Below the pieces are notes generated by a model. That model did not search any database. It saw only the letters and a program-made list of their open reading frames with translations, and had not been told where the DNA came from. From positions 248,001 to 312,000 of the forward strand of contig NZ_CANLSZ010000002.1 in assembly GCF_947493765.1 (NCBI RefSeq): DNA of 64,000 bases, written 5' to 3'. The DNA comes from an uncultured Arthrobacter sp. Lineage in GTDB: Bacteria; Actinomycetota; Actinomycetes; Actinomycetales; Micrococcaceae. Positions 19,930-38,990 of the stretch are shown piece by piece (position 1 is the first letter of the stretch; each line of letters begins with the position of its first letter). The position numbers and the translations under genes are program-made.

Positions 19930-20003
19930 GCCTGTGTAGCTCAGTCTGGTAGAGCATCCGCCTCACACGCGGAAGGCCCGGGGATCAAGGCCCCGCGCAG
20001 GCA
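19930..20003 (+). tRNA. tRNA-Val (anticodon CAC)
   Basis: The 74-nt cloverleaf has acceptor arm GCCTGTG pairing with CGCAGGC (one G-U), D-arm GCTC/GAGC, anticodon arm TCCGC-CTCACAC-GCGGA with CAC, and T-arm CGGGG/CCCCG. The T-loop reads ATCAAGG, so position 54 is A instead of the usual T. CCA is not encoded; CAT follows the discriminator A. Confidence 0.93.
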
Positions 20004-20042
20004 CATCGGAACGCCGGTGACGGCAGTACAGTGACGGTGATA

Positions 20043-20084
20043 CAGGAGGGGCCCGCACCGGGACGACGGTGCGGGCCCCTCCTG
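20043..20084. terminator. strong hairpin terminator after tRNA-Val
   Basis: A perfect 18-bp inverted repeat (20043-20060 with 20067-20084) surrounds a 6-nt loop. It lies 40 bp after the tRNA and before the SDR gene. Confidence 0.75.
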
Positions 20085-20145
20085 CATCCGCATCCCGCCG
20101 AGGCCCACCTTGCACAGCGGCGCCCCGCACGCGAAGGATGGGGGC

Positions 20146-20943
20146 ATGGACTTCACACCGAGCACAGCAATCGTCACCGGCTCCGACTCCGGCATCGGCC
20201 GGGCAACAGCACTCGCCCTCGCAGCGGCCGGCTGCGCGGTCGGTGTCACCTGGCACTCCGACCAGGAAGGCGCGGAGGAGACCGCGCGCCTCGTCCGCGA
20301 GAAGGGCGTCAAGGCGGCGGTGGCGCACCTGGACACCACGGACGCGCCGGCCTGCGGAGATGTGATCGACCAGCTCGCGGAGGAACTCGGCGGGGTGGAC
20401 GTCTTCGTCAACAATGCCGGCATCAACGGCGGCACCATGTTCATGGAGACGGACTGGGATCTCTGGCGCGCCACGGTCGGCGCGAACCTCGACGGCGCGT
20501 TCGTCTGCATCCAGCGCGCGGCCCGGCACATGCTCGACGCCGGCAGGGGCGGGCGCATCATCGCGGTCACCAGTGTCCACCAGGCGCAGCCGCGTGTGGG
20601 ATCGGCCGCCTACGACGCGTCCAAGCACGGCCTCGGCGGCCTCGTCAAGACCATCGCCCTGGAGCTCGGTGATCGCGGCATCACGGCGAACGCCGTACTC
20701 CCGGGCGAGATCAACACTCCGATGAACGATTCCGAGGACCAGGATCCGCGGAGCATCGACCGCCCCGGGGTGCCGGTGGGCCGGCCGGGATCGGCGGAGG
20801 AGGTGGCCGACGTCGTCGCCTTCCTCGCCTCCGGCGCCTCCAGCTACGTCAACGGCGCCTCGTTCGTCGTCGACGGCGGCATGCTCCTCATGGGGCCGCA
20901 GGCCGGCTCGCACCTCACGAGCGGCGACTGGCGCACGGTCTAG
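20146..20943 (+). CDS. SDR family NAD(P)-dependent oxidoreductase
   Basis: This 265-residue classical short-chain dehydrogenase has the cofactor motif TGSDSGIG near residue 10, NNAG at about residue 88 and the active-site YDASK, with a Ser/His region upstream (ITSVHQAQPRVGSAAYDASK in part). The C-terminal FLASGASSYVNGASFVVDGG is the usual substrate-loop/oligomer region. Family members interconvert alcohols and ketones, commonly sugars or short hydroxy acids. The specific substrate is unknown. ATG at 20146 is used; the short upstream in-frame extension lacks family similarity. It stands alone between two terminators. Confidence 0.9.
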   Translation: MDFTPSTAIVTGSDSGIGRATALALAAAGCAVGVTWHSDQEGAEETARLVREKGVKAAVAHLDTTDAPACGDVIDQLAEELGGVDVFVNNAGINGGTMFMETDWDLWRATVGANLDGAFVCIQRAARHMLDAGRGGRIIAVTSVHQAQPRVGSAAYDASKHGLGGLVKTIALELGDRGITANAVLPGEINTPMNDSEDQDPRSIDRPGVPVGRPGSAEEVADVVAFLASGASSYVNGASFVVDGGMLLMGPQAGSHLTSGDWRTV

Positions 20944-20952
20944 CGGCCGATC

Positions 20953-20999
20953 CCGCAGGAACGACGGGTCCCGGGGTCCGGGATCCGTCATTCCTGCGG
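20953..20999. terminator. bidirectional terminator between the SDR gene and the ABC permease gene
   Basis: A long imperfect inverted repeat (CCGCAGGAACGACGGGTCCC and CCGGGATCCGTCATTCCTGCGG arms, two mismatches) separates convergent genes. Confidence 0.7.
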
Positions 21000-21017
21000 T
21001 GTCGCCGAGCCGGAGCG

Positions 21018-21731
21018 CTACCGGACCACCGCTGAGCGCAGCAGGAGAAGGGTCATGACCGCGCTGACGGCGATGATCACGACGGCGGCGACCGCCAGCC
21101 ACCACAGCCGGAAGCCGTCGAGCACCGACCCGGTGATCAACGGCAGGACCAGGGCGAGCAGGCCGAGGAGTCCGATCGCCAGACCTGCTCCGAGGAAGAC
21201 CGGTCCGCGATTCCCGAAGCGTGCCCAGGACGCCCCGAACAGGGCTCCGATGGTCAGTGCGCCGAGGCTGCCGAGGAACACCGTGGGCAGCAGGATCAGC
21301 AGGTCACCGGTCCCGAGGTAGTAGACGTCGAAGATGTAGATGCCGGCGAACCAGTGATCGGTGGCCAGCTCCACCAGCAGGAGCACGGCGTAGATGACCG
21401 CGAGATACGCGGAGGTGACGGCGGCCCAGACCAGGGTCCCGCCCACGAAGGCCTTCCGCGTGGAGCCGAGCGTCAGGGCGAAGGGGAACGTGGTGGCGAT
21501 CGACTGGACCCCCATGTAGACGAGGAATCCCAGCAGCCCGAAGGCCATGCCACCGTTGCTTCGTGCTCCGTCGATCCATTCCTCGGAGCCCGGGAGTCCC
21601 CCGGCACGCCAGATGATGAGGGCGATCAGGGCTGAGATGACGGCGATAAGCCCCACGATCTGCAGGGGGACCCCGAACGTCATGTTCTTCTTGGTCAGAT
21701 GCAGCCGGGTGGCCGCCTGGATGCCGCTCAT
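21018..21731 (-). CDS. ABC transporter membrane protein of a YtrA-type operon
   Basis: This 237-residue protein has about six hydrophobic segments (for example PLQIVGLIAVISALIALIIW, GLLGFLVYMGVQSIATTFPF, LGAGLAIGLLGLLALVLPLI, AVAAVVIIAVSAVMTLLLLR). It has no cytosolic domain beyond short loops. It is the membrane partner of the adjacent ATPase. ATG at 21731 has AAGGAAGGA upstream and overlaps the ATPase stop (ATGA). The substrate is unknown; related GntR-ABC operons respond to cell-wall antibiotics or other envelope stress. Confidence 0.8.
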   Translation of the reverse strand: MSGIQAATRLHLTKKNMTFGVPLQIVGLIAVISALIALIIWRAGGLPGSEEWIDGARSNGGMAFGLLGFLVYMGVQSIATTFPFALTLGSTRKAFVGGTLVWAAVTSAYLAVIYAVLLLVELATDHWFAGIYIFDVYYLGTGDLLILLPTVFLGSLGALTIGALFGASWARFGNRGPVFLGAGLAIGLLGLLALVLPLITGSVLDGFRLWWLAVAAVVIIAVSAVMTLLLLRSAVVR

Positions 21732-22633
21732 GCGCTGATTCCTTCCTTGCTGGAGTCCTGCAGGGAGTCCCCGGAGCCGTAGGCCACCGCGAGATCCTGC
21801 AGCGATGCGCCCTTGAGCTGGACGCCGAGGGTCGCCGCACGCGACCGGGCGTCGTCGTCGAGCCGGCCGGTGATGGTGGATGTGCGCAGACCGCCGATGG
21901 AATGGCTGCGGAGCACGGGGTAGTCCGCGCAGAACGCCTGGACGGCATCCGCGACGCCGCTGACGCACATCGCGAGACGGCGCGCCTCCTCGGCCTCCGC
22001 ACGGAGGACCACGCGGCCGCGGTCCATGAGCACGACATGGTCGAAGAGGGAGTCCGATTCGTCGATGAGGTGCGTGGAGAGCAGGAGCGTGCGCGGGTGC
22101 CGCCCGAGATCGCGGAGCAGGAGATCGTGGAACAGCCCGCGGGCCGTCGCGTCGAGACCGAGATACGGCTCGTCCAGCAGGGTGACCGGCGCCCGGGAGG
22201 CGAGTCCGAGCACGATGGCGACGGCGGAGAGCTGGCCCCTGGAGAACTTCCTGATGGCCGGTTTCCGCGGCAGCCGGAAGCCCTCGACCAGTTCGGCGGC
22301 GAGTTCGCCGTCCCAGGAAGGCGCGAACTCGGGGGCGATGCTCAGGACGTGATGCAGGAAGTAGTCGTCGGGATACCGCTGGTTGTCGCGGACGAAGCTG
22401 ATCCTGGACAGGACCGCCTCATTCTCGAACGGGTCCTCCCCGTCCACGAGCACCTGCCCGGTGGTGGGCCGGTCCTGCCCCGAGATCAGCGACATCACGG
22501 TGGTCTTGCCCGCACCGTTCCTGCCGAGCAGGCCGCAGATGGCGCCGTCCGGCACGGTCAGGGTGACATCCTCCAGCGCGTTGTCATTGCGGAAGCGCCG
22601 GGTGACGGACTGTAGTTCTATCGCCTGTGTCAT
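21728..22633 (-). CDS. ABC transporter ATP-binding protein
   Basis: This 301-residue nucleotide-binding subunit has Walker A GRNGAGKTT, the Q-loop after it (ISFVRDNQRYPDD), the signature region FSRGQLSAVAIVLGLASRAP (LSGGQ variant FSRGQ), Walker B VTLLDEPYLGLD and the H-loop LLLSTHLID. The C-terminal 80 residues form the extension typical of export-type drug or lantibiotic ATPases. It is coupled by 4-bp overlaps to both the upstream GntR regulator and the downstream membrane protein. Confidence 0.9.
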   Translation of the reverse strand: MTQAIELQSVTRRFRNDNALEDVTLTVPDGAICGLLGRNGAGKTTVMSLISGQDRPTTGQVLVDGEDPFENEAVLSRISFVRDNQRYPDDYFLHHVLSIAPEFAPSWDGELAAELVEGFRLPRKPAIRKFSRGQLSAVAIVLGLASRAPVTLLDEPYLGLDATARGLFHDLLLRDLGRHPRTLLLSTHLIDESDSLFDHVVLMDRGRVVLRAEAEEARRLAMCVSGVADAVQAFCADYPVLRSHSIGGLRTSTITGRLDDDARSRAATLGVQLKGASLQDLAVAYGSGDSLQDSSKEGISA

Positions 22634-22989
22634 GGGATGTATTCCTCCTTGATCATCTGCGCCAGCTCCGGGGGCTCGATACCGACGGCCCTGGCCTCCC
22701 TGATGAGCGGGTGGACGAACTGCTGCGGGAAGTCCGCCCTCCGCTGCTTGAGGAGCTGGCTCCGGGCGCCGGGCGCCACGAACATGCCCACGCCCCGCTT
22801 CTTGTAGAGCACGCCCTGCTCGACGAGCACATTGAGCGCTTTCCCGGCCGTGGCCGGATTCATGTGCAGGAAGGTCGCGAAGTCGTTCGACGACGGTACA
22901 GCGGCATCCTCGGCGTAGGTCCCGGCCACGATGTCGTCCGCGATCCGGGCAGCGAGCTGCTGATAGATGGGGCTGTCTCCGGTGAACAT
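22630..22989 (-). CDS. GntR family transcriptional regulator (YtrA-type)
   Basis: This 119-residue repressor has an N-terminal winged helix (SPIYQQLAARIADDIVAGTY, VPSSNDFATFLHMNPATAGKA) and only a short C-terminal helical tail, the YtrA layout. In this subfamily the tail dimerises and the regulator typically represses its own ABC operon. ATG at 22989 has GGGAG upstream; an in-frame ATG at 23007 is the alternative. Its stop overlaps the ATPase start by 4 bp, so it is the first gene of a regulator-ATPase-permease operon. Confidence 0.9.
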   Translation of the reverse strand: MFTGDSPIYQQLAARIADDIVAGTYAEDAAVPSSNDFATFLHMNPATAGKALNVLVEQGVLYKKRGVGMFVAPGARSQLLKQRRADFPQQFVHPLIREARAVGIEPPELAQMIKEEYIP

Positions 22990-23006
22990 CGCACTCCCTT
23001 GGTTCA

Positions 23007-23022
23007 TTACTACACTAGTTAA
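23007..23022 (-). promoter_or_regulatory. candidate operator of the GntR-ABC operon
   Basis: TTACTACACTAGTTAA is an imperfect palindrome (TTACT...AGTTAA) directly upstream of the regulator gene, in an AT-rich patch unusual for this window. Autoregulation through a palindrome at this position is typical of YtrA regulators. No experiment supports this site. Confidence 0.35.
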
Positions 23023-23100
23023 CCTACGAGGTGCATGCTGTCCCGTCAAGGCCTCATCGGGCGCCGGGCGCCCGTCCGCGAGGTCGGCTCCTCTCCCCTG

Positions 23101-23106
23101 TAACGT
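23101..23106 (+). promoter_or_regulatory. -10 element (TAACGT) of a leaderless promoter for pstS
   Basis: TAACGT lies seven bases before the GTG at 23114. No Shine-Dalgarno sequence is visible. Confidence 0.45.
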
Positions 23107-23113
23107 GGCTCCG

Positions 23114-24226
23114 GTGAGAAACCGAGCCCCCGCCGTATCCCTCGCCCTCGCCGCCGCGCTCGCCCTGACGGCCTGCGGCTCCGACTACCCCCTCGGAGCC
23201 GAGCAGGAGGCGGCAGCGGAGAACGGTGACACGAGCCTGAAGGGCGCGATCACCGGTGCTGGGTCCTCGGCGCAGGGACCGGCCATGGACGCGTGGCGGG
23301 CCGGCTTCAGTACGCTGTACCCGCGCGCGCAGGTCCAGTACTCACCCGACGGCTCGGGGGCGGGCCGGGGCGCGCTGCTCGCCGGCGCGGTCTCCTTCGC
23401 CGGATCCGACGCCTATCTCAGCGACGAGGAACTCGCCGAGTCGCGGGAGGCCTGCGGTCCCGGCGGGGCCTTCAACATCCCTGCCTACGTCTCCCCCATC
23501 AGCGTTGCCTTCAATCTCCCCGGCATCACGGAGCTGAACCTCAATGCCGGTACGATCGCGCAGATCTTCCGCGGGGAGATCACGCGGTGGGACGATCCGG
23601 CGATCGCGGCGCAGAACGAGGTGGACCTCCCCGATCTGGCGATCTCCGCGGTGAGCCGCTCCGACGACTCCGGAACCACCGAGAACTTCACCGACTACCT
23701 GCACGCCGTGGTGCCCGAGATCTGGACCGAGGAGGCCGATGGGACCTGGCCCTCCGGTCTCGACAACGAGAACGCCAAGGGCAATGCGGGGGTGGTCAGC
23801 ACGGTGGCCGGTACGGAGGGGGCCATCACCTATGCCGACGACTCGGCCGTCGGGGATCCCCTCGGGCGGGCCGCCCTGCGGGTCGGGGACGCGTACGTGC
23901 CGGTCAGCGCCGACGCCGCCGCAGCCGCCGTCGATCTCGCGGGCCGCGTCCCGGGCCGGGCGGACTACGACATAGCGCTGGACCTCGACCGGTCCACGCG
24001 CGAACCCGGCGTCTACCCGCTGGTCCTGGTGTCCTACCACGTCTACTGCGCACGCTACGAGAACGAGTCGACCGCCGACGTCGTCCGCACCTTCGGGACC
24101 TACGCGGTCAGCGCGGAGGGTCAGGCCGAAGCGGCGGAGGCGGCGAAGAGCTCCCCCATCTCCGCGGAGCTGTCCCGTCAGGCGACCGACGCCATCGCGA
24201 CGATCGAGGTCGGCGACGTCCCGTAG
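23114..24226 (+). CDS. pstS: phosphate-binding lipoprotein PstS
   Basis: This 370-residue solute-binding protein starts with a lipoprotein signal (VRNRAPAVSLALAAALALTAC, Cys about 20), so it should be lipid-anchored outside the membrane. Phosphate-binding segments ITGAGSSAQGPAMDAW, YSPDGSGAGRGALLAG and AVSRSDDSGTTENFTDYL fit PstS. It lacks adjacent pstC, pstA and pstB, so it is a standalone copy. It could serve another ABC complex or scavenge phosphate. GTG at 23114 is chosen because the signal peptide then has a normal length; GTG at 23105 is possible. Confidence 0.9.
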   Translation: MRNRAPAVSLALAAALALTACGSDYPLGAEQEAAAENGDTSLKGAITGAGSSAQGPAMDAWRAGFSTLYPRAQVQYSPDGSGAGRGALLAGAVSFAGSDAYLSDEELAESREACGPGGAFNIPAYVSPISVAFNLPGITELNLNAGTIAQIFRGEITRWDDPAIAAQNEVDLPDLAISAVSRSDDSGTTENFTDYLHAVVPEIWTEEADGTWPSGLDNENAKGNAGVVSTVAGTEGAITYADDSAVGDPLGRAALRVGDAYVPVSADAAAAAVDLAGRVPGRADYDIALDLDRSTREPGVYPLVLVSYHVYCARYENESTADVVRTFGTYAVSAEGQAEAAEAAKSSPISAELSRQATDAIATIEVGDVP

Positions 24227-24239
24227 GCCGGGAGGACGC

Positions 24240-24280
24240 AGGACAGGAGGCGGACCCCACGGGGATCCGCCTCCTGTCCT
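24240..24280. terminator. bidirectional terminator after pstS
   Basis: An inverted repeat built from AGGACAGGAGGCGGA and its complement, with a short CACG-centred loop, lies between convergent pstS and the SRPBCC gene. Confidence 0.75.
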
Positions 24281-24291
24281 TCGCCTGCGCG

Positions 24292-24840
24292 TCAGTCGGC
24301 GCGCGGTCCACCCGAGTCCGGGTCGTTCGTCGAGGTGTCCGGCACCGCATCGTTCGCCGGCACCGCATCCCCCGTCTCCCCCGTGGGGGGCGCGTCGACC
24401 TCCCCGCGCCAGGCGCCGGTCTCTCCACCACTCTTCTCGATGAAGGACTTGAACCGCTTGAGGTCGCCCTTGACCTGGATCGCGTCCGCATTCACCACGG
24501 CACCGACCTTCTCGGTGAACGTCTCCGGGTGCCAGTCGATCTGCACCATGAGCCGCGTACTGCTCTCGTCGAGCCGGTGGAACGTCACCACGCCGGCGTG
24601 CGATTCCCCGTCGGTGCTCTTCCAGGCGATCCGCTGGTCGGGATGCTGCTCGGTGATCTCCGCGTCGAACTCGCGCTTCACCCCACCGATGCTCGTCACC
24701 CAGTGCGTCATGGTCTCGGAGGACTGCGTGATGGAGTCGACACCCCCCATGAACCGGGGGAAACTCTCGAACTGGGTCCACTGGTTGTAGGCCGTGGTGA
24801 CCGGTACTGCCACGTCGATGGATTCCTGCACTGAAGCCAC
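24292..24840 (-). CDS. SRPBCC family protein (cyclase/dehydrase type)
   Basis: This 182-residue protein opens with the family sequence SIDVAVPVTTAYNQWTQFES and FPRFMGGVDSI. The core continues to FKSFIEKSGGETGAWRGEV at about residue 145 and is followed by a disordered acidic tail (DAVPANDAVPDTSTNDPDSG). This is the cyclase/dehydrase-type START fold common in Actinobacteria. A strong AAAAAGGAGGAACC ribosome site marks the GTG start at 24840. It is divergent from dps across a 206-bp region. Function is unknown; its relatives are often linked to envelope or aromatic metabolism. Confidence 0.82.
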   Translation of the reverse strand: MASVQESIDVAVPVTTAYNQWTQFESFPRFMGGVDSITQSSETMTHWVTSIGGVKREFDAEITEQHPDQRIAWKSTDGESHAGVVTFHRLDESSTRLMVQIDWHPETFTEKVGAVVNADAIQVKGDLKRFKSFIEKSGGETGAWRGEVDAPPTGETGDAVPANDAVPDTSTNDPDSGGPRAD

Positions 24841-25046
24841 GAGGGTTCCTCCTTTTTCAAGACTCCGGCGCCGCCCATACCCCTCGTGCGGGGTTTCGGC
24901 ACGACTGGACCGTAAGTCCCCTTAGCGTATTGATTCCGGTTGGATTTGGCCAACACCCGGGACTACGCTGAAAACGGTCCCCCGGCGTTTCCCGGCGTGA
25001 ACACCACGCCGCCGGAGGAGGTCATTTCTCTAGCACTGGAGGATTC

Positions 25047-25541
25047 ATGAAGGCTTCAAGCACCCTCACCGACAACATGCAGGCGGTCCTCGTGGACCTG
25101 GTCGAACTGCACCTGCAGGGCAAGCAGGCGCACTGGAACGTGGTCGGCAAGAACTTCCGCGATCTCCACCTGCAGCTCGACGAGATCATCGACGACGCCC
25201 GCACCTTCGCCGACGACATGGCGGAGCGCATGCGTGCGCTGCACGCCGTACCGGACGGCCGCAGCATCGCCGTGGCCGAGGGCACCAAGATCGAACCCTT
25301 CCCGGCCGGTCTCGTCTCCACCAAGGACACCGTGGGTCTCGTGGTCAGGATGCTGAACGCAGCGGTGAAGACCATGCGCGACGTCCACGACCAGATCGAC
25401 GAGGAGGATCCCACCACGGCCGACCTGCTCCACGGCTTCATCGGGAAGCTCGAGCAGTACGCCTGGATGGTCGACGCCGAGAACATGGAACCGACCGCAG
25501 AGGTCGTCACGCCGGTCGGCACCGAAGAGGCCACCGTCTGA
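25047..25541 (+). CDS. dps: Dps family ferritin-like DNA-protecting protein
   Basis: This 164-residue protein forms a dodecameric shell that stores iron and consumes peroxide. The ferroxidase-site helix reads HLQGKQAHWNVVGKNFRDLH, with the typical AHWN and D in LQLDEIIDD. The later helices (GLVVRMLNAAVKTMRDVHDQ and DLLHGFIGKLEQYAWMVDAE) match Dps. No long lysine-rich N-tail is present, so non-specific DNA binding may be weak. A TTGGAT-N18-TACGCT promoter-like pair lies about 80 bp upstream. It is a single-gene unit ending in a strong hairpin. Confidence 0.92.
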   Translation: MKASSTLTDNMQAVLVDLVELHLQGKQAHWNVVGKNFRDLHLQLDEIIDDARTFADDMAERMRALHAVPDGRSIAVAEGTKIEPFPAGLVSTKDTVGLVVRMLNAAVKTMRDVHDQIDEEDPTTADLLHGFIGKLEQYAWMVDAENMEPTAEVVTPVGTEEATV

Positions 25542-25580
25542 GCCACTGCATTATCTGCACTGACGCGTGACAGTCACGTA

Positions 25581-25614
25581 GGGAGGGGAGGTGCCCGTGG
25601 GCACCTCCCCTCCC
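25581..25614 (+). terminator. Rho-independent terminator after dps
   Basis: A perfect 16-bp stem (GGGAGGGGAGGTGCCC at 25581-25596 with 25599-25614) is followed by CCTTTCG. Confidence 0.82.
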
Positions 25615-25724
25615 CCTTTCGCGCTGCCTTCATCCCGGGTCCGCCGATGCCTGATTCACCCGGGACCCAAGGACTGGCAGGTAGGGAAACGCATCGGGAT
25701 ACCAGAGGCCTGGGACCCTGGTGC

Positions 25725-25746
25725 TGACATCAGGCGTCACTACGCT
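25725..25746 (+). promoter_or_regulatory. narG promoter with palindrome (leaderless type)
   Basis: TACGCT (25741-25746) lies seven bases before the narG ATG, so the transcript may begin at or next to the start codon. Directly upstream, TGAC-N7-GTCA (25725-25739) forms an inverted repeat overlapping the core promoter. That is a plausible site for a regulator, but it is not the FNR consensus. Confidence 0.4.
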
Positions 25747-25753
25747 TTCCGTC

Positions 25754-28700
25754 ATGGCTACCCCTCCTATAGCTCCGGGTACCGATGGTCCCGCGTCCGA
25801 CGCCCTCCTCAAGATCGGGCAGTTCTTCACCCGATGGGACCAGAGCCCGGACCGTCGCGCGGTGTTCCGCTCGGGCGGACGCGCCGGTGACGCGTTCTAC
25901 CGGAACCGGTGGAGTCACGACAAGGTGGTCCGTTCCACGCACGGGGTGAACTGCACCGGTTCGTGCTCATGGAAGGTCTACGTCAAGGACGGGATCATCA
26001 CCTGGGAGGCGCAGGAGACCGACTACCCGTCGGTGGGTCCGGACCGCCCGGAGTACGAGCCCCGCGGCTGCCCCCGTGGCGCGGCCTTCTCCTGGTACAC
26101 CTACTCGCCGACCCGCGTGCGCTACCCGTACGTACGCGGAGTGCTGCTGGGGATGTACCGCCAGGCCAAGGAAGAGGTGGGTGGGGATCCGGTGCTCGCC
26201 TGGCAGGCGGTGGTGAGCGACCCGGAGAAGCGCCGGGCATTCCAGTAGGCCCGTGGCAAGGGCGGACTGGTGCGCTCGAGCTGGCAGGAGGCCCTGGAGA
26301 TGACGGCCGCCGCCCACGTGCACACGATCAAGACCTACGGACCCGACCGGTGCACCGGGTTCTCCCCCATCCCGGCCATGTCGATGGTCTCCCACGCGGC
26401 CGGCGCGCGGTTCATCAACCTCATCGGCGGGGTGATGAACAGCTTCTACGACTGGTACGCGGACCTGCCCGTTGCCAGTCCTCAGGTCTTCGGCGACCAG
26501 ACGGACGTCCCGGAGTCCGGCGACTGGTGGGACGCCACCTACCTCATGATGTGGGGCTCCAACATCCCGGTGACCCGCACCCCTGACGCGCACTGGATGG
26601 TCGAGGCACGCTACCGGGGGACGAAAGTCGTCTCCGTCAGCCCCGACTACGCCGACAACACGAAGTTCGCCGACGAGTGGCTGCCGGCCCAGGCCGGCAC
26701 GGACGCTGCCCTGGCCATGGCGATGGGTCATGTGATCCTCAAGGAGAACTTCGTGGACAGAAGGGTTCCCTTCTTCGAGGACTATGTGGTGCAGTACACC
26801 GACTTACCCTTCCTCGTCACCCTCGAGCAGCGACCGGACGGCACCGTGGTGCCCGACAAGTTCCTCACCGCCACGGATCTGGGCAACGCCGAGGCGGAAA
26901 CTTCCGACGCGGCGTTCAAGACGGTGCTGATCGATCGGGATGCGGGTACCCCGGTGGTGCCCAACGGGTCGGTGGGGTTCCGCTACAACGAGGTAGACGA
27001 GGGGAAGTGGAACCTGGATCTGCAGGGCGTGCGTCCGGCTCTGTCGATCACCGACGCGGCATCGTACAGCGGGACCACGAGTACGGTGGAGCTGCCCGCC
27101 TTCACGGACGCCACGGGAGAGGGCTCGGTGGTGCACCGCGGAGTACCCGTCACGGAAGTTGCCGGACGCCAGGTCACGACGGTCTTCGACCTCATGCTCG
27201 CCCAGTACGGAGTGGGTAGAGCCGGATTGCCCGGACAGTGGGCCTCAGGGTACGACGACGTCGACACGCCCTACACGCCGGCCTGGCAGGAGGAGATCAC
27301 CTCGGTCCCAGCTCAGGCAGTAGCCCGCATCGCCCGGGAATTCGCGACCAATGCAGAGAAGTCCAGAGGCCGGTCGATGATCATCCTGGGCGCCGGCATC
27401 TGCCAGTGGTACCACGGGGACGTCACCTACCGGGCCATCCTGGCGATGCTCATGCTCTGTGGTTGCCAAGGCCGCAACGGCGGCGGCTGGGCGCACTACG
27501 TCGGTCAGGAGAAGGTCCGCCCCATCACGGGCTGGGCAGCGATGGCGGCAGCCACCGATTGGACCCGTCCGCCGCGGTTCATGATCGGCACGGCCTTCTG
27601 GTACATGCACACCGACCAGTTCCGCTCCGACGGGTACTCCTCCGATTCCCTGCAGTCCCCGCTGGCCCAGGGTCATCTGGAGGGCATGCACACCGCCGAT
27701 GTGGTCGCCAAGTCCACCCGGATGGGGTGGATGCCGTTCTTCCCGCAGTTCGACCAGAATTCGCTCGATGTGGCCGAGGCGGCCATCGCGGGTGTGGCCC
27801 GCGGCGAAGCTGCCGACGAGGCGCAGTGGGTCGCGGACCGGCTCAAGGCCGAGGACATGCGCTTCGCCGTGGAGGACGTCGACGCCCCGCAGAACTGGCC
27901 TCGCACCCTGATCCTGTGGCGTTCCAATCTGCTGGGTTCCTCGGCCAAGGGCGAGGAGTACTTCCTCAAGCATCTGCTGGGCACTCATCACAACGTCATG
28001 GGGGAGGACCACGCCGGGTCACGGCCGAAGGACGTGACCTGGCACGAGGAAGCCCCCGAGGGCAAACTCGACCTGCTCGTCTCGGCCGATTTCAGGATGA
28101 CCAGCTCCACGCTGCTCTCCGACGTCGTGTTCCCGGCGGCGACCTGGTACGAGAAGCACGATCTCTCCTCGACCGACATGCACCCGTACGTGCACGCCTT
28201 CACCCCGGCGATCAGCCCGCCCTGGGAGGCCAAGACGGACTACGACCTGTTCCGGCTGCTGGCCGAGGAATTCTCCCGGCAGGCGAGCGCCCACCTGGGC
28301 GTGCGGAAGGACCTGGTGGCCACTGCACTCACCCACGACACCCCCGGCGAGCTCGCCCAACCCGGAGGCCACGCTCCGGACTGGAAGGGCACTGACATCC
28401 CGGCCGTCCCGGGGAGGAATCTGCCGGAGCTGAAGATCGTCGAACGGGACTACGCCGCGGTCGGGCAGAAGTTCTCGGCCGTCGGACCGCTGGCGGAGAA
28501 GCTTGGATTCACCACGAAACACATCACCTACGACGTCACCCACCAGATCCGCCAGCTCGCGCAGAAGCACGGCGTCTTCGACTCCGGCGCCGCGGCGGGC
28601 CGGCCCGCAGTGGACACCGACGCGCGGATGGCCGAGGCCATCCTGCTGTTCTCCGGCACCACCAATGGTGAGCTGGCCGTACAGGGATTCGAGACGCTCG

Positions 28701-29479
28701 AGCAGCGCACAGGAGTCCAGCTGGCCGATCTGGCCCGCGGATCCCAGGAGAAGCGGATCACCTTTGCCGACACCCAGGCCGCTCCCGTTCCCGTGATCAC
28801 CTCCCCGGAGTGGTCGGGCTCGGAGACCGGAGGTCGGCGCTACGCCCCGTTCACCATCAACATCGAACGGCTCAAACCGTTCCACACCCTCACCGGGCGG
28901 ATGCACTTCTTCCTCGACCACGACTGGATCAAGGACATGGGTGAGTCCCTGCCGATCTACCGCCCGCCCCTGGACATGCACCGCCTGTTCGGGGAGCCCC
29001 AGCTCGGGCAGCGCGGTGAGCTGTCGATCGCCGTGCGGTACCTGACCCCGCACAACAAGTGGTCGATCCATTCGGAGTACCAGGACAACCTGTTCATGCT
29101 CTCCCTCTCCCGCGGCGGCACCACGGTGTGGATGAGCCCCCAGGACGCCGCGCTGATCGAGGTCTCCGACAACGACTGGGTCGAGTGCCTCAACACCAAC
29201 GGCGTTTACGTGGGACGGGCCATCGTCTCCCACCGCATGCCGGCCGGGGTGGTCTATGTTCATCACGCTCAGGAGCGCACCATCGACGTGCCGAAGTCCG
29301 AGACGACCGGCCGCCGGGGCGGGATCCACAACTCGGTCACCCGCATCCTCGTCAAACCGACCCACATGATCGGTGGCTACGCACAGCTGTCCTGGGCCTT
29401 CAACTATCTCGGGCCCACCGGCAACCAGCGCGACATCGTCTCCGTGGTCCGAAAGCGTTCCCAGGAGGTCCGGTACTGA
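25754..29479 (+). pseudogene. narG: respiratory nitrate reductase alpha subunit, interrupted by an in-frame TAG
   Basis: The reading frame is 1241 codons long and would encode a full NarG, the molybdopterin subunit that reduces nitrate to nitrite at the cytoplasmic face of the membrane. It is broken by TAG at codon 165 (26246-26248), between RRAFQ and ARGKGGLVR. The FS0 cluster ligands (His63, Cys67, Cys71, Cys106) lie before the stop. The Mo-ligand region YDWYADLP, QTDVPES and TRTPDAHW lie after it. Both sides keep the same frame and normal family sequence, so nothing else is missing. A CAG-to-TAG change is the simplest explanation. An internal GTG at 26270 could start a truncated protein lacking FS0. 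The following narHJI genes are intact. Confidence 0.85.
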
Positions 29480-31155
29480 TGCGAGTCATGGCCCAGGTCG
29501 CGATGGTGATGGCGCTCGACAAGTGCATCGGGTGCCACACCTGTTCGGTGACGTGCAAGCAGGCGTGGACGAACCGCGCCGGCACGGAGTACGTGTGGTT
29601 CAACAACGTGGAGACCCGTCCGGGCCAGGGATATCCCCGCCGGTACGAGGACCAGGAGAAGTGGAAGGGCGGCTGGGAGCTCAATCGCCGCGGCAATCTC
29701 AAGCTCAAGGCAGGCGGGCGCTGGGCGAAGCTCTTCGGCCTGTTCGCGAGTCCCGTCCAGCCCGAGCTCAACGACTACTACGAGCCGTGGACCTACGACT
29801 ACGAGAATCTGATCACCGCTCCGGCCGGCACCGACTTCCCGGTGGCCCGGCCCAAGTCCCTGATCACCGGTGAGGACATGAAGATCGAGTGGTCGGCCAA
29901 CTGGGACGACAATCTCGGCGGTACGGCCCAGCTGGGCCATCTGGACCCGGTCGTGGAAAAGGTCCGACGGGAATCGGAGGACAAGATCACGTTCGAGTTC
30001 GAACAGACCTTCGCCTTCTACCTTCCCCGGATCTGCGAGCACTGCCTCAATCCCTCCTGCATGGCCTCCTGCCCCTCCGGCGCGATCTACAAGCGTGCGG
30101 AGGACGGGATCGTGCTGGTGGACCAGGACCGGTGCCGAGGCTGGCGCCAGTGCATCACCGGCTGCCCGTACAAGAAGATGTACTACAACCACAAATCCGG
30201 CAAAGCGGAGAAGTGCACCTTCTGCTACCCCCGCATCGAGGTGGGCATCCCCACCGTGTGCGCGGAGACGTGCGTGGGCCGGCTGCGCTACATCGGCATC
30301 GTCCTCTACGACGCCGACCGGGTCACCGAGGCCGCCGCGACCCCGGACGAGCAGGACCTCTACGAGGCCCAGCTGGACATCATGCTCGATCCCCATGACC
30401 CCGACGTAGTCGCCGCTGCTCGTGCCGAAGGCATCCCCGAGGACTGGCTCGACGCCGCACGCCGATCCCCCGTCCACATTCTCGCCAAGGAGCTGCGGGT
30501 GGCTCTGCCGCTGCACCCGGAGTACCGGACCATGCCCATGGTCTGGTACGTGCCGCCGCTGTCCCCGGTGGTGGACCTGCTCAAGGACCAGGGTCACGAC
30601 GGCGAGGACGCCTCCACCCTGTTCGGGGCCATCGACGCCCTGCGCATCCCGGTCGAGTACCTCGCCGAGCTGTTCACGGCCGGGGACACCGGGACGATCC
30701 GTGAGGTACTCGGCAAACTGGCCGCCATGCGTTCGTACATGCGCGACATCGCCCTCGGCGAGGACCCGGACGAGGGGATCGCCGAGGCTGTCGGGATGAC
30801 CGGTGCCGAGATCCGGAAGATGTACCGGCTCATGGCGATCGCCAAGTACGAGGAACGCTACGTCATCCCCTCCGCTCATCTGGAGGAGGCACACAACCTC
30901 GAGGAGATCGGCTGCTCCCTCGACGTCGACGGCGGGCCGGGCATGGGCCAGACCGGCGTGTTCGGCGAGGCCTCCGGCCGACCGATGCCCGTGGCGACGG
31001 AGAACTTCAACGCCCTGCAGGCACGGCAGCGCGGCGAGGATCCCACCGGCAACGAGGGCCTGGCCGGACGGGTCAACCTGCTCAACTGGGACGGCCGGGG
31101 CAACCCCCAGGGGTTGTTCCCGCCCGACAGCGGACCTAGGAACGGAACGAACTGA
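29479..31155 (+). CDS. narH: nitrate reductase beta subunit NarH
   Basis: This 558-residue iron-sulfur subunit passes electrons from NarI to NarG. It carries four Cys clusters: CIGCHTCSVTCKQAW near the N-terminus, CEHCLNPSCMASCPSGAIYK, CRGWRQCITGCPYKK (Trp in place of the cysteine, as expected for the 3Fe-4S cluster) and CTFCYPRIEVGIPTVCAETC. The C-terminal part (EEIGCSLDVDGGPGMGQ) fits the family. The ATG shares one base with the narG stop (TGATG), and the next gene overlaps similarly. All key cysteines are present, so this subunit looks functional. Confidence 0.95.
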   Translation: MRVMAQVAMVMALDKCIGCHTCSVTCKQAWTNRAGTEYVWFNNVETRPGQGYPRRYEDQEKWKGGWELNRRGNLKLKAGGRWAKLFGLFASPVQPELNDYYEPWTYDYENLITAPAGTDFPVARPKSLITGEDMKIEWSANWDDNLGGTAQLGHLDPVVEKVRRESEDKITFEFEQTFAFYLPRICEHCLNPSCMASCPSGAIYKRAEDGIVLVDQDRCRGWRQCITGCPYKKMYYNHKSGKAEKCTFCYPRIEVGIPTVCAETCVGRLRYIGIVLYDADRVTEAAATPDEQDLYEAQLDIMLDPHDPDVVAAARAEGIPEDWLDAARRSPVHILAKELRVALPLHPEYRTMPMVWYVPPLSPVVDLLKDQGHDGEDASTLFGAIDALRIPVEYLAELFTAGDTGTIREVLGKLAAMRSYMRDIALGEDPDEGIAEAVGMTGAEIRKMYRLMAIAKYEERYVIPSAHLEEAHNLEEIGCSLDVDGGPGMGQTGVFGEASGRPMPVATENFNALQARQRGEDPTGNEGLAGRVNLLNWDGRGNPQGLFPPDSGPRNGTN

Positions 31156-31853
31156 TGGGTGTGCTGGAGAAGCTGCTCGGCAAAGCCGGACCGGGAACCG
31201 TCGATCCCGGCATATATACCGACACCGATCCCCGGCGCAGCGCCGTGATCCGCCAGGCCACCGCTCTGCTCCTCGGCTATCCGGACCACCAGCTTCTGAC
31301 GATGCTGCCGACCCTTCGTGCTGCCCTCGAGGAGGTGCGAGCTCCGGTGGAGGAGATCGAGGAGCTCCTCGACTGGTTCACGGCCCGACCGCTGGAGCAG
31401 GTGCAGTCCGACTATGTCCAGGAGTTCGACCTCTCCCGCCGCCACAGCCTGCACCTGACGTACTGGACCGACGGCGACACCCGCCGTCGGGGGGAGGCCC
31501 TGGCGGCGTTCAAGGAGATCTATCGCTCCCACGGGGCAGATCCCGAGGAATCCGAGCTTCCGGACTATCTGCCGCTGGTGCTGGAGTTCGCCGCAAGGAT
31601 CTCCCCGGAGGACGGCTACGAGCTGCTGCAGCGCTACCGCCCCTCCCTCGAACTGCTGCGGCTCGCGCTGCGTGACGATCATTTGCCGTACCGCGGCGCC
31701 GTCGCCCTCGTGTGCTCCACCCTTCCCGGGGTCTCCCCGGAGGACCGCGACGCCGTGATGCGGATGGCCGGTTACGGTCCGCCCACCGAGTCCGTCGGCC
31801 TGGATCCCTACGATCCCCGGTTACTGCCCGTCAGCCGAAGGAGCACTCCATGA
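31155..31853 (+). CDS. narJ: nitrate reductase assembly chaperone NarJ
   Basis: This 232-residue helical chaperone of the TorD/DmsD/NarJ group binds NarG during cofactor insertion and membrane attachment. Recognisable parts are ATALLLGYPDHQLLTMLPTL, EFDLSRRHSLHLTYWTDGDT, the SELPDYLPLVLEF motif, and ALVCSTLPGVSPED. It overlaps narH by 1 bp and narI by 4 bp. The gene is intact. Confidence 0.93.
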   Translation: MGVLEKLLGKAGPGTVDPGIYTDTDPRRSAVIRQATALLLGYPDHQLLTMLPTLRAALEEVRAPVEEIEELLDWFTARPLEQVQSDYVQEFDLSRRHSLHLTYWTDGDTRRRGEALAAFKEIYRSHGADPEESELPDYLPLVLEFAARISPEDGYELLQRYRPSLELLRLALRDDHLPYRGAVALVCSTLPGVSPEDRDAVMRMAGYGPPTESVGLDPYDPRLLPVSRRSTP

Positions 31854-32686
31854 ACCGCGTTGCCCCGATCGTTCAGAACGCTGACACGGGCGTAGGTAGC
31901 ATCCTGCTGTGGGGCGTGCTCCCCTACGTAGTGCTGGCCGTCGTGATCGGCGGCACCGTGTGGCGCTACAGGTACGACCAGTTCGGCTGGACCACCCGGT
32001 CCTCGCAGCTCTATGAATCCCGTATTCTGCGCATCGCCTCCCCGCTGTTCCATTTCGGGATCCTCGCGGTCCTGGCGGGGCACATCATGGGCCTGTTCAT
32101 TCCCGCGTCCTGGACTGCCGCCGTGGGCATGACCGAGGGGATGTACCACTTCATGGCCCTGAGCATCGGGACGATCGCCGGGATCGGCACCCTCGTGGGG
32201 ATCGTCCTGCTCGTCTGGCGCCGCCGCACCACCGGCCCCGTGTTCATGGCGACCACCAAGAACGACAAGTTCATGTACGTCATGCTCCTGGCGGCCCTGC
32301 TGACGGGACTGGCCACCACCGTCATCTCGGTGCTCGACCACTCGGTCGCGGACTACCGGCAGACAGTCTCCCCGTGGTTCCGCTCCATCTGGATCTTCCA
32401 GCCGGATGTCGCAGCCATGGCCGCCGCCGGGCCGTCCTTCAAGCTCCACGCGCTGTGGGCGATGGCCCTGTTCGCGATCTGGCCGTTCACCCGCCTCGTG
32501 CACGCGTTCACGGCACCCGTGCACTACCTCTTCCGTCCATACATCGTCTACCGCTCCCGCGACACCGGCTCCTCGTCGCATCACCACTCATCCGGCCACC
32601 GCGGCTGGGAACCTGTGGGCACCCAGGACCGGGCCCGCGGTGCCACGAGGGCACCTTCGCCCCGCAGGAGGGCCGGCCGACGTTGA
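31850..32686 (+). CDS. narI: nitrate reductase gamma subunit NarI (cytochrome b)
   Basis: This 278-residue membrane subunit oxidises quinol and carries two hemes b. Five hydrophobic segments are visible, including GSILLWGVLPYVVLAVVIGG, and the heme-ligand histidines in PLFHFGILAVLAGHIMGLF and FKLHALWAMALFAIWPFTRL. The C-terminal 50 residues are soluble and basic, with a His-rich patch (SSSHHHSSGHRGW). The ATG at 31850 overlaps narJ. The gene is intact. Confidence 0.94.
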   Translation: MNRVAPIVQNADTGVGSILLWGVLPYVVLAVVIGGTVWRYRYDQFGWTTRSSQLYESRILRIASPLFHFGILAVLAGHIMGLFIPASWTAAVGMTEGMYHFMALSIGTIAGIGTLVGIVLLVWRRRTTGPVFMATTKNDKFMYVMLLAALLTGLATTVISVLDHSVADYRQTVSPWFRSIWIFQPDVAAMAAAGPSFKLHALWAMALFAIWPFTRLVHAFTAPVHYLFRPYIVYRSRDTGSSSHHHSSGHRGWEPVGTQDRARGATRAPSPRRRAGRR

Positions 32687-32722
32687 TGTCCCGTCTCATC
32701 CACCGACCGCACGAGGACGACC

Positions 32723-33964
32723 ATGGCATCCACCTCCCGAGCGACATCTCCCGGCACTGACCCGGATCTCAGAGCCGGGCAGCTGCGCAACCTGGTCCTG
32801 GCCACGCTGGCGTCCACGGTCGGTTTCTGGGCCTGGACCATCGTGGGTCCGCTCTCCAGGCGCTACGCCCAGCAGATGGAGCTCGATGCCACCCAGACCG
32901 CCGTCCTGGTGGCGATGCCGATCCTCGTCGGCTCCGTCTTCCGTGTTCCCGTGGGAGCTCTGACCGACCGCTACGGGGGACGGGTGATGTTCACCGTCAT
33001 CCTCGGCATGGCGGCCCCGCTGGTGCTGGCCACCGGATTGATCGGGCAGCTGAACAGCTTCGGGCTGCTCGTGGCTGCGGCGTTCTTCCTGGGTATCGCC
33101 GGCACGGTCTTCGCCATCGGCATCCCGTTCTGCTCCGCCTGGTACGAGTCCCACCGCAAGGGCTTCGCCACCGGTGTCTTCGGTGCCGGCATGATCGGCA
33201 CCGCCGTCTCGGCGTTCCTCACTCCCCGCCTCGTGGCCGGAATCGGATATCTGGGTACGCACATCACCGTCGCCGTGATCGTCGCCCTCATGGCCCTGGT
33301 CAGCTGGCTGCTACTGCGCGACTCACCCGTGCATGCGGCCAAGACCCCCGAGCCGGTCCTGCCGAAGATCGGCCACGCCTTCACCCTGAAGGTGACCTGG
33401 CAGCTGTGCTTCCTCTACGGGGTGGTGTTCGGCGCGTTCGTGGCATTTTCGAACTATCTGCCGACCTATCTCGACAACGTGTATGGCTTCGACGCCACCG
33501 CCGCCGGTACCCGCACCGCGGGATTCGCCCTGGCCGCTGTCATCGCCCGCCCCGTCGGCGGGATCCTCGCTGACAGGATCGGACCCAGGACCGTCACCCT
33601 GGCGTCCCTGGGCGGCACTGCCGTGCTCGCGATGGTCGTGGCCCTCCAACCCGGGCAGGAACGCGTCTACGGGCCCGTCTTCCTCCTCATGGCACTCTTC
33701 CTCGGTCTGGGCACCGGTGGGGTCTTCGGCTGGGTAGGCCGGGCAGCCCCGGCCAGGAACGTCGGAACCATCGGCGGCATCATCGCGGCCGCCGGCGGTC
33801 TGGGCGGGTACTTCCCACCGCTGGTCATGGGTGCCACCTACAACACCGAGAACAGCAGCTACTTCGTCGGGCTGACACTACTGGCAGCATTCGCGGTTCT
33901 GTCCCTGCTGCTCTCCCTCACCGTGCGCAATGGTGGAAAGGTCGACGCGCGGGCCGATCCCTGA
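32723..33964 (+). CDS. narK: nitrate/nitrite transporter, NarK family (MFS)
   Basis: This 413-residue major facilitator protein has about 12 membrane segments. Family markers are LASTVGFWAWTIVGPLSRRY, FRVPVGALTDRYGGR (MFS loop motif), a nitrate signature-like GTVFAIGIPFCSAWYE in helix 5, and ARPVGGILADRIGPR. It imports nitrate or exports nitrite. It lies 36 bp after narI and completes a narGHJIK operon. No nitrate-responsive two-component system is encoded in the window. Confidence 0.92.
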   Translation: MASTSRATSPGTDPDLRAGQLRNLVLATLASTVGFWAWTIVGPLSRRYAQQMELDATQTAVLVAMPILVGSVFRVPVGALTDRYGGRVMFTVILGMAAPLVLATGLIGQLNSFGLLVAAAFFLGIAGTVFAIGIPFCSAWYESHRKGFATGVFGAGMIGTAVSAFLTPRLVAGIGYLGTHITVAVIVALMALVSWLLLRDSPVHAAKTPEPVLPKIGHAFTLKVTWQLCFLYGVVFGAFVAFSNYLPTYLDNVYGFDATAAGTRTAGFALAAVIARPVGGILADRIGPRTVTLASLGGTAVLAMVVALQPGQERVYGPVFLLMALFLGLGTGGVFGWVGRAAPARNVGTIGGIIAAAGGLGGYFPPLVMGATYNTENSSYFVGLTLLAAFAVLSLLLSLTVRNGGKVDARADP

Positions 33965-34050
33965 TCTCGCGCGGTATCGCCGGAGCACCGACTGACCACC
34001 CCGGACACGCACTCGGACCGAGTCCGTGGTCCGCTCAGGTAGAAGCCGGC

Positions 34051-34080
34051 ATGGGACCCATGCGCCGATGATGCTAGGTT
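34051..34080 (+). promoter_or_regulatory. candidate promoter and palindrome upstream of gntK
   Basis: ATGGG-A-CCCAT (34051-34061) is a perfect palindrome, and TAGGTT (34075-34080) is a possible -10, about 42 bp before the gntK start. The palindrome lies near the -35 position and could bind a repressor. Confidence 0.3.
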
Positions 34081-34122
34081 TACCCGACATCGTGATCCCC
34101 GCTGTGGGGTAAGGGAGTCAGA

Positions 34123-34665
34123 ATGGATGCACAACCGCGCCACGTGGTGGTCATGGGAATCTCGGGTTCCGGCAAGACCACCATCGCCACCCACCTGGCG
34201 GAGACACTCGGGTGGACGTTCGCCGAGGCGGACGAGTTCCACTCCGCGGAGAACATCGAGAAGATGACGTCCGGGACACCACTGACCGACGAGGACCGCT
34301 GGCCCTGGCTGGAGTCGATCCGCGCCTGGCTCACCGAGCAGGCGGAGGCCGGTACCAGTACCGTCATCACGTGTTCGGCCCTGCGGCGCGCCTACCGCGA
34401 CGTCCTCGCGCAGGCGGCGGGCGAGGTCCGGTTCGTGCACCTGCTCGGCGACACGGATCTCATCCTCGACCGCATGAAGACCCGCAGCGGCCACTTCATG
34501 CCGCAGTCGCTCCTGCCGTCACAGCTCAGCACGCTCGAACCGCTGGAGTCCGACGAGCAGGGCATCAGGATCATGAACACCGGGACTCCCGACGAGGTGA
34601 CCGCCGGCGTGATCGACCAGCTCGGCCTCGAGCATTCCGACCCCCTGCAGGAGGAGACGCCATGA
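34123..34665 (+). CDS. gntK: gluconokinase, GntK/IdnK family
   Basis: This 180-residue P-loop kinase phosphorylates D-gluconate to 6-phosphogluconate. Walker A is MGISGSGKTTIA. Family sequences are EADEFHSAENIEKM, PLTDEDRWPWLESI, TCSALRRAYRDVL and RSGHFMPQSLLPSQLSTLE. TAAGGGAG provides a ribosome-binding site. It overlaps the permease gene by 4 bp, giving an uptake-plus-phosphorylation operon that feeds the pentose phosphate pathway. Confidence 0.95.
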   Translation: MDAQPRHVVVMGISGSGKTTIATHLAETLGWTFAEADEFHSAENIEKMTSGTPLTDEDRWPWLESIRAWLTEQAEAGTSTVITCSALRRAYRDVLAQAAGEVRFVHLLGDTDLILDRMKTRSGHFMPQSLLPSQLSTLEPLESDEQGIRIMNTGTPDEVTAGVIDQLGLEHSDPLQEETP

Positions 34666-36062
34666 CCGTCGAAGGATGGACCCAGACCCTGACCGCCGGT
34701 CCGCTCCTGCTGATCGCCGCAGCGGCGATCCTCGTCCTGCTGTTCCTGATCATCACGCTCCGCCTCCACGCGTTCGTGGCCCTGATCCTCATCAGCCTCG
34801 CGACGGCCTTCGCCACGGGTATCCCGACGTCCCAGATCGTGACCGTCCTGGTGGGGAGCTTCGGTTCCACGCTGGGCGCCGTGGCACTCCTCGTGGGTCT
34901 CGGCGCCATGCTCGGCCGGCTCGTCGAGACCAGTGGCGGTGCCAAGGTCCTCGCCGACTACCTCATCAGGGTCTTCGGTGAGCAGAGGGCACCCCTGGCC
35001 CTGGGAGTCGCCTCACTGGTCTTCGGGTTCCCCATCTTCTTCGACGCCGGACTCGTGGTGATGCTGCCGATCGTCTTCTCGATCGCCCGTCGCCTCGGTG
35101 GTGGTGTGCTGCGGTACGGTCTGCCGGCCGCGGGGGCCTTCTCGGTCATGCACATCTTCGTCCCCCCGCATCCGGGACCGGTCGCCGCCTCCGAGTTCTT
35201 CGGGGCGAACGTGGGGATCGTCATCATGGTCGGCCTCGTCGCCGCCATCCCCACCTGGTACGTGACCTCCTACCTGTACGGCCTCTGGGTCGGCAAGAAG
35301 TACGTCCTGCCCGTCCCGGCACTCCTCGGGACGGCGGACGAGCATGCGGAGGCCAATCCTCCGAAATTCGGCACCGTGGTGGCCATCCTCCTGCTCCCCC
35401 TCGTGCTGATCTTCCTCAACACGGGGCTGAACACCGTGGCACGATCGGGCTCGGCCGACGAGGGTCTCGCCGACCAGACCTGGTTCCAGGTACTCAGGAC
35501 CCTCGGTGAGACACCCGTGGCCCTGCTGATCTCCCTGCTCGTGGCCGCCTATGTCCTCGGCCGCCGGCGCGGAATGGACAAGACCGTCCTCGAGAGCACC
35601 CTGGAATCCGCCCTCGGGCCGATCGCCTCCGTGGTCCTCATCACCGGGGCGGGCGGCATGTTCGGCGGCGTGCTGCGCACCAGCGGAATCGGCGACGCCC
35701 TCGCGGATGTCCTCGGCGAGCTCGGCATCCCGCTGATCCTCGCGGGCTTCCTCATCGCCGCGATCCTGCGCATCGCCCAGGGCTCGGCGACCGTGGCACT
35801 GACCACCGCGGCCGGCCTCATCTCCCCCGCCATCCTCGCGGGCGACTACAACACGTTCCAGCTCGCGGCCCTCGTGGTCGCCGTCGCCGGCGGCTCGGTG
35901 GTGGCCAGCCACGTGAACGACTCCGGCTTCTGGCTCGTGGGGCGGTTCTTCGGCATGGACGTCAAGACCACGCTGAAGACGTGGACCGTCATGGAGACGA
36001 CGATCGGCGTCATGGGCTTCGCCATCGCGGCGGCGGTCTTCGCCCTCGCCTCGGCGGGCTGA
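34662..36062 (+). CDS. gluconate:H+ symporter, GntP family
   Basis: This 466-residue membrane protein of the GntP family has about 12-14 hydrophobic helices. Family motifs are VGLGAMLGRLVETSGGA, FGFPIFFDAGLVVMLPIVF, FVPPHPGPVAASEFFGANVG and NDSGFWLVGRFFGMDVKTTL. It imports gluconate or a related aldonate with protons. Coupling to gntK by a 4-bp overlap supports gluconate. It ends 9 bp from a convergent FAD dehydrogenase gene. Confidence 0.93.
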   Translation: MTVEGWTQTLTAGPLLLIAAAAILVLLFLIITLRLHAFVALILISLATAFATGIPTSQIVTVLVGSFGSTLGAVALLVGLGAMLGRLVETSGGAKVLADYLIRVFGEQRAPLALGVASLVFGFPIFFDAGLVVMLPIVFSIARRLGGGVLRYGLPAAGAFSVMHIFVPPHPGPVAASEFFGANVGIVIMVGLVAAIPTWYVTSYLYGLWVGKKYVLPVPALLGTADEHAEANPPKFGTVVAILLLPLVLIFLNTGLNTVARSGSADEGLADQTWFQVLRTLGETPVALLISLLVAAYVLGRRRGMDKTVLESTLESALGPIASVVLITGAGGMFGGVLRTSGIGDALADVLGELGIPLILAGFLIAAILRIAQGSATVALTTAAGLISPAILAGDYNTFQLAALVVAVAGGSVVASHVNDSGFWLVGRFFGMDVKTTLKTWTVMETTIGVMGFAIAAAVFALASAG

Positions 36063-36071
36063 CGGCCGCGG

Positions 36072-37748: not shown

Positions 37749-38478
37749 GCCGTCTGCCGCCCTTCTGCCCGCTGCCCTGCTGTTTGTGGCTCTGCTGTCC
37801 ACTGCCCTTTCGTCCACTGCCCTGCTGTCCACTGCCCTGCTGTCCCCCGCCCCGGCCGGTGGCGGCCTTCTTCGCCGCGGCCTTCTGCGCAGCGGTCCTC
37901 TTCGGGGCCTCCTGCCGGGAGGGTTGCCGTGAGCTCTGCGCCGTCCGTCCGCGGACGATGCCGATGAACTCCTCGACGTCGTCCGACTCGTCCTCCACCC
38001 GCCACGCGATGCCGATGGTGGTCACCGGCAGGCCCGGTACCGGGCGGTGCACCGCATCCTTGCGCGCATGCAGCCGGGCGAGGGACATCGGCAGGACCAC
38101 AACCCCCGCGCCGGAGGCAGCCACCTCCACGGCGTTCCCCGGTCCGCCGCACGCGCCGACGTCGAGCAGGGTCTGCGCCCCGAGTTCCTCGGGCGGCACC
38201 TCGTCGAGGAGCGAGAGCTCGTTCTCCCGCGACATCACCACCACGGGCTGTTCCTCGTAGAGGGGGATCAGGTGCAACCCGGCGCGCTCCACCGGCAGGC
38301 GGACGAACACGACGTCGTCGGATCCGTTCCGCAGGCCCTCCAGGGCGGCGTCGGCGTCGTGCTCGTGGAGCTCCAGGGGCACGCTGGGGTGCCGCTCACG
38401 CCACCTCGACGCCCACTTGCCCGGCGTCACGCCCGGCACGAAGCCGACGGAGAGGACGCGGGGCTGGTCGGCGGGCAC
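37738..38478 (-). CDS. LysR-type substrate-binding domain protein without HTH
   Basis: This 246-residue protein contains a LysR effector-binding domain: RVLSVGFVPGVTPGKWASRW (start), LHEHDADAALEGLRNGSDDV, EEQPVVVMSRENELSLLDEV and VEVAASGAGVVVLPMSLARL. The usual N-terminal helix-turn-helix is absent. The C-terminal 60 residues are basic and low-complexity (APKRTAAQKAAAKKAATG, then GQQGSG repeats), perhaps binding nucleic acid. GTG at 38478 is chosen from the VPADQPRV start; a -10 lies six bases upstream. It is back to back with the DUF5997 gene, a conserved pairing in Micrococcaceae from memory. Confidence 0.82.
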   Translation of the reverse strand: MPADQPRVLSVGFVPGVTPGKWASRWRERHPSVPLELHEHDADAALEGLRNGSDDVVFVRLPVERAGLHLIPLYEEQPVVVMSRENELSLLDEVPPEELGAQTLLDVGACGGPGNAVEVAASGAGVVVLPMSLARLHARKDAVHRPVPGLPVTTIGIAWRVEDESDDVEEFIGIVRGRTAQSSRQPSRQEAPKRTAAQKAAAKKAATGRGGGQQGSGQQGSGRKGSGQQSHKQQGSGQKGGRRRGR

Positions 38479-38520
38479 CTGATCACAGTAGCGCCTGGGC
38501 TCGACCGTTAAGCTGGGTCC
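38479..38520. promoter_or_regulatory. 42-bp divergent leaderless promoter pair
   Basis: On the minus strand TACTGT (38490-38485) is six bases before the GTG at 38478. On the plus strand TAAGCT (38509-38514) is six bases before the ATG at 38521. The two -10 elements sit back to back, so a protein bound between them would affect both genes. Confidence 0.55.
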
Positions 38521-38913: not shown

Positions 38914-38954
38914 GAAGCACCGTGGACGCGGTTCGTCCGGACCGGACACACCGA

Positions 38955-38990
38955 TTGACTTAATAGAACACGTCTTCGAATATTAGGGGG
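38955..38990 (+). promoter_or_regulatory. SOS promoter: LexA box between -35 and -10 of imuA'
   Basis: TAGAACACGTCTTCGA (38964-38979) matches the actinobacterial SOS box TCGAAC-N4-GTTCGA with one mismatch in each half. It sits between TTGACT (38955-38960) and GAATAT (38978-38983), which are 17 bp apart. The GTG start begins six bases after the -10, so the mRNA would be leaderless. LexA bound here would block the promoter directly. Confidence 0.8.

Follow-up and report, generated by a model that had tools for sequence, protein, structure and literature searches.

The window analysed here, a stretch of 64,000 nucleotides from an uncultured Arthrobacter sp. (contig 2, 248001-312000), contains a nar operon in which the frame of the first gene, narG, carries a single in-frame stop. 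The features are listed below; the roles of the cofactor ligands and the residue number Asp222 are those we assume for E. coli NarG.

25754..29479, + strand: narG, catalytic subunit of the respiratory nitrate reductase, with one in-frame stop; over the TIGR01580 cut-off
25754..26248, + strand: N-terminal piece of narG, 164 codons plus stop, bearing the residues aligned with the four presumed FS0 ligands
25940..25942, + strand: His63, aligned with a presumed FS0 ligand of E. coli NarG
25952..25954, + strand: Cys67, aligned with a presumed FS0 ligand
25964..25966, + strand: Cys71, aligned with a presumed FS0 ligand
26069..26071, + strand: Cys106, aligned with a presumed FS0 ligand
26246..26248, + strand: in-frame TAG, codon 165 of narG, from the frame translation and the alignment to E. 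coli 1q16_A
26249..29479, + strand: C-terminal piece of narG, 1076 codons plus terminal stop, bearing the molybdopterin domain
26462..26464, + strand: Asp aligned with the presumed Mo ligand Asp222 of E. coli NarG
29479..31155, + strand: narH, beta subunit, intact; over the NCBIfam cut-off
31155..31853, + strand: narJ, assembly chaperone, intact; over the NCBIfam cut-off
31850..32686, + strand: narI, gamma subunit, intact frame with the start taken from the frame listing; over the NCBIfam cut-off
32723..33964, + strand: narK, nitrate/nitrite transporter of the NarK type, frame intact; matches TIGR00886 best, with the full profile spanned but a score below the curated cut-off

The narG frame runs from the ATG at 25754 to the TGA at 29477-29479 over 1241 codons plus stop and, when TAG is translated as X, the triplet at 26246-26248 is its sole internal stop. 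Frameshifts are absent, and HMM searches of the strain's own genome independently flag '1 TAG' within the frame, which bears out the claims of the earlier note that this codon is the only break and that the frame is not shifted. Against TIGR01580 (cut-off 1084.15) the frame scores 1573.6 bits, and the piece downstream of the stop alone reaches 1339.5 bits. The ATG of narH overlaps the TGA of narG (TGATG, 29477-29481), an AGGAGGT motif is found just 5' of the narH start, and narH, narJ, narI and narK are intact, as had been claimed, according to both their frames and their profile matches.

In E. coli NarG (1q16_A), codon 165 corresponds to residue 151, as interpolated from the end of the upstream match to the start of the downstream match. 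His63, Cys67, Cys71 and Cys106, which we take to occupy the FS0 ligand positions, are located upstream of the TAG, and the Asp at 26462..26464, presumably at the position of the Mo ligand Asp222, is located downstream; the stop therefore separates the two sites, in agreement with the earlier note. When read with translation table 11, the presumed FS0 ligands and the molybdopterin domain are split onto separate chains. The TAG directly precedes the conserved ARGKGGLVR block. Its original placement inside a very conserved stretch holds only in part, as the adjoining block is conserved but the residue at the stop varies: nine residue types and no stop occupy this column in the 79 of 80 named relatives that are readable there (in the remaining one, L081, the motif was not found). 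The alignment of NarG across relatives thus reveals sense codons in all 79 readable copies, and the frame is broken where those of the relatives are intact.

In the nearest relative, Arthrobacter echini, narG is syntenic and intact, and the TAG differs by one base from the sense codon found there. The A. echini stretch can be aligned to about 94% of the window; the aligned blocks are 81-88% identical in DNA, and 3651-6507 and 7276-7908 remain as gaps. Between the two narG products residue identity is 98% upstream and 97% downstream of the stop, and the pairwise dN/dS is 0.13 upstream (0.19 when a longer stretch before the ATG is included) and 0.069 downstream. In the downstream part, amino-acid changes number 12-14 on the strain's own branch and 10-11 on that of A. 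echini, and silent changes 55-69 and 40-48, respectively, the ranges spanning four outgroups (Kocuria, Brevibacterium and Micrococcus copies) and 24-30 ambiguous differences being set aside. The own branch is not enriched in amino-acid changes (Fisher p 0.81 and 0.82 with the two outgroups tested out of four). According to a rough Poisson bound, in which the A. echini ratio is treated as exact and multiple hits are ignored, a period of neutral drift would have become noticeable once it exceeded about 2.5-7% of the own branch, a value that varies with the outgroup. From the downstream dN/dS of 0.069 and the missing enrichment it follows that the stop is either very young or not real; in terms of the gene, the unrelaxed selection would imply either that the loss of narG is too young or that narG has not been lost.

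The same comparison indicates an uneven divergence along the region. Per 500-base step, the nar operon (26000-32500) is 91-98% identical in DNA to that of A. echini and the flanks (20000-26000 and 32500-40000) are 81-93% identical; dS is 0.10-0.22 in narG, narH and narJ and about 0.25-0.8 in most other listed frames. The higher identity of narGHJI and the lower dS suggest that the two lineages exchanged the operon once they had split or, alternatively, that codon constraint is unusually strong.

The earlier note had left three options for the TAG, namely a recent knock-out, a base-calling error and a stop that is read through. The first is favoured here and the third is unlikely, while the second is the main rival. 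An error of sequencing, assembly or consensus calling, or else a base that has risen within one culture, would leave the natural strain with an intact narG; we judge this unlikely, although far from negligible. One single-base difference from the sense codon of the closest relative, in a frame that is otherwise undamaged and under unrelaxed selection, is what an error would leave behind, and this combination also counts against a genuine null allele. Moreover, an isolated mid-gene stop occurs even in gyrA in public genomes of the order (1 among the 150 matches listed). On the other side, the assembly is good (2.99 Mb in 31 contigs, 99.99% complete, 0 contamination), the neighbouring nar genes are free of frameshifts, and the four genomes with a stop in narG are 96-99.99% complete, whereas the genome with the gyrA stop is 88% complete and 7% contaminated. 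The completeness of the narG-stop genomes therefore leans towards real mutations, but no more than that.

As controls from essential genes, rpoB displayed no internal stop among the matches listed, each covering about half of the gene, and gyrA had 10 flagged among the 150 matches listed. Upon re-alignment of all 10, one proved to be a true mid-gene stop (G074), three were located near the C-terminal end and six had no stop in the re-aligned stretch. The gyrA of G074 (L188) has its internal TAG near query residue 496, which is perhaps an assembly artefact. These numbers are too small for a rate of narG loss and a rate of error to be separated by them, and the weakness of the controls has to be held against the null allele. 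The same applies to the truncated N-terminal product, which has one member only in the protein collection, on a single contig as long as the strain's own: one search of this collection returned no second copy, the next match (80% identity over 90% of the query; P0122 and P0143 are matches of this search) being less similar, and a 142-residue metagenome fragment matches at 95% identity over 73% of the product.

Stops in narG are also found in other genomes. A search of the order with the part after codon 165 as query matched 151 of 396 genomes, with internal stops in G102 and G073 among the matches listed (the best 150 of 151), and a search of the family matched 180 of 395 genomes, with internal stops in the strain's own genome and G469 among the matches listed (the best 150 of 180); some genomes are in both sets. 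In G469, G102 and G073 the lesions are single stops, TAG, TAG and TAA, at query residue 28, about 93 codons past codon 165 (located by tblastn) and near the C-terminus, respectively, so that the four stops, including that of the present strain, occupy four different codons. The single stops at other codons in three further narG genes indicate that such events are ordinary. Some other narG genes match in pieces in different open frames (e.g. in G063 and G026). Comparison of the narG DNA with plasmids gave 173 records, most of 60-80% identity.

A strong narG match is present in 6 of 38 genomes of the genus, the own genome included; the gene is therefore dispensable in the genus and its absence tolerated. 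The strain's genome also encodes moaA and two further molybdopterin oxidoreductases, one with Fdh-alpha and NasC matches below the cut-offs and the other of the FdhF/YdeP type and over the subfamily cut-off, so that other enzymes may draw on the cofactor pathway. For Mycobacterium smegmatis it is reported that neither nitrate assimilation nor nitrate reductase activity required narGHJI under the test conditions (PMC7816997); PMC9241783 is irrelevant here, narG not having been detected in the species studied there. The stop described here was not found in print in searches of the literature on narG stops and pseudogenes, Arthrobacter nonsense mutations, nitrate in A. echini and read-through.

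The purifying selection on both sides of the stop would equally be predicted if the TAG were read through often enough to provide functional full-length NarG, by means of a suppressor tRNA, recoding or a high level of near-cognate misreading. The translation apparatus of the strain makes this very improbable. The search of the genome for a UAG suppressor, as envisaged in the earlier note, was carried out with a covariance model, which found 46 tRNA genes, and with ARAGORN typing of 30 loci, 13 short stretches and the window; all 46 were typed and none has a CTA anticodon, i.e. no tRNA reads UAG by a CUA anticodon. A loss of release factor RF1 was looked for by profile search of the genome and prfA is present (472.6 bits, cut-off 423.25), while no pyrrolysyl-tRNA synthetase exceeds the curated cut-off in the genome (PylS at 26.8 bits, cut-off 178.15). 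In addition, a conserved recoding site is not seen, because the 79 readable relatives have sense codons at codon 165, and the three other narG stops sit at three other positions. On these grounds a suppressor tRNA or recoding was rejected, as was the idea that a stop position common to several narG genes might point to recoding. It is possible that a weak or unusual suppressor tRNA was missed by both programs, or that ordinary low-level misreading takes place. In a variant of this reading, a near-cognate tRNA would misread UAG 165 often enough to be of physiological use in some condition, the early stop acting as a dimmer on nitrate respiration with narG kept under selection; we regard this as exceedingly improbable.

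Two tRNA genes of the survey deserve separate mention. The only tRNA-Leu (TAA) found (L145, 118-191, - strand) measures 74 nt and is shorter than the other leucine tRNAs found; leucine tRNAs usually carry a long variable arm, and this one looks as if it were without it. A second tRNA-Trp (cca) of 92 nt (L136, 1892-1983, + strand) was reported by ARAGORN only, is not in the covariance-model list and is probably spurious.

A wider reassignment of TAG was examined by a two-way scan confined to the window, in which a frame was flagged when a stop inside it had 40 or more constrained codons both before and after it. A filter on dN/dS was adopted because of shadow frames in GC-rich DNA and thus places weakly constrained genes outside the scan. 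Of the 274 matches between A. echini reading frames and the window, 45 had a dN/dS < 0.2, and three frames were flagged, narG and two that by their coordinates are antisense, to narH and to an error-prone polymerase gene. In the opposite direction, where 49 of 295 matches were constrained, two frames were flagged, antisense to gyrB and to a penicillin-binding-protein gene. As no annotatable gene of the window other than narG has a stop flanked on either side by constrained frame, a wider reassignment was rejected.

A working enzyme might also be assembled from two separately made pieces if translation restarted at the GTG at 26270, where a frame of 1069 residues begins. However, the context of this GTG is the ordinary coding sequence of the ARGKGGLVR block, near-identical in the intact A. 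echini gene, the residues that align with the FS0 ligands and with the Mo ligand would reside on different chains, and the 79 readable relatives have no stop at codon 165; a split enzyme is accordingly a far-fetched explanation, to which we give hardly any credence.

Altogether, the TAG in narG is a real observation and a matter of ordinary biology, and we consider it likely that it constitutes a real, very recent nonsense substitution and narG a null allele in this strain. This assignment is consistent with a frame that is otherwise open throughout, with an intact A. echini copy and a low downstream dN/dS over the whole divergence, with the tolerated absence of narG in the genus, with single narG stops elsewhere (G469, G102 and G073) and with a termination machinery that looks standard. 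We propose the following scenario: Provided that the base is real, ribosomes would terminate efficiently at codon 165 via RF1 and release a 164-residue stub that contains the FS0 ligands and lacks the molybdopterin domain, and any product restarted downstream would be without FS0 and the N-terminus. Active NarGHI would consequently not be formed, even though narH, narJ, narI and narK stay readable, and the 3.2 kb left untranslated may also lower the expression of narHJI by polarity. Such a loss would be tolerated, the gene being patchy in the genus. If the base is real, the operon annotates the genome as that of a nitrate respirer, yet the strain should not respire nitrate with NarGHI; the locus would then be a small, clean case of trait loss at its first step and a caution against inferring phenotypes from the presence of genes.

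Compared to E. coli NarGHI (TIGR01580; 1q16/1r27), the Arthrobacter system shares the length of NarG, the pattern of ligand residues and the gene order narG-H-J-I plus narK, whereas its narG frame is ended by a TAG at codon 165. With amber suppressor tRNA and pyrrolysine systems it has in common that a UAG stands in frame within a gene subject to purifying selection, but here neither a CUA tRNA among the 46 nor a PylS over the cut-off accompanies it. The single-lesion narG alleles of G469, G102 and G073 resemble it in an otherwise open frame with one in-frame stop and differ in that their stops are at codons other than 165. In the light of these systems, the narG described here seems to have lost its function very recently and in an ordinary way, or else to contain a sequencing error, and does not look like a new reading of the genetic code.
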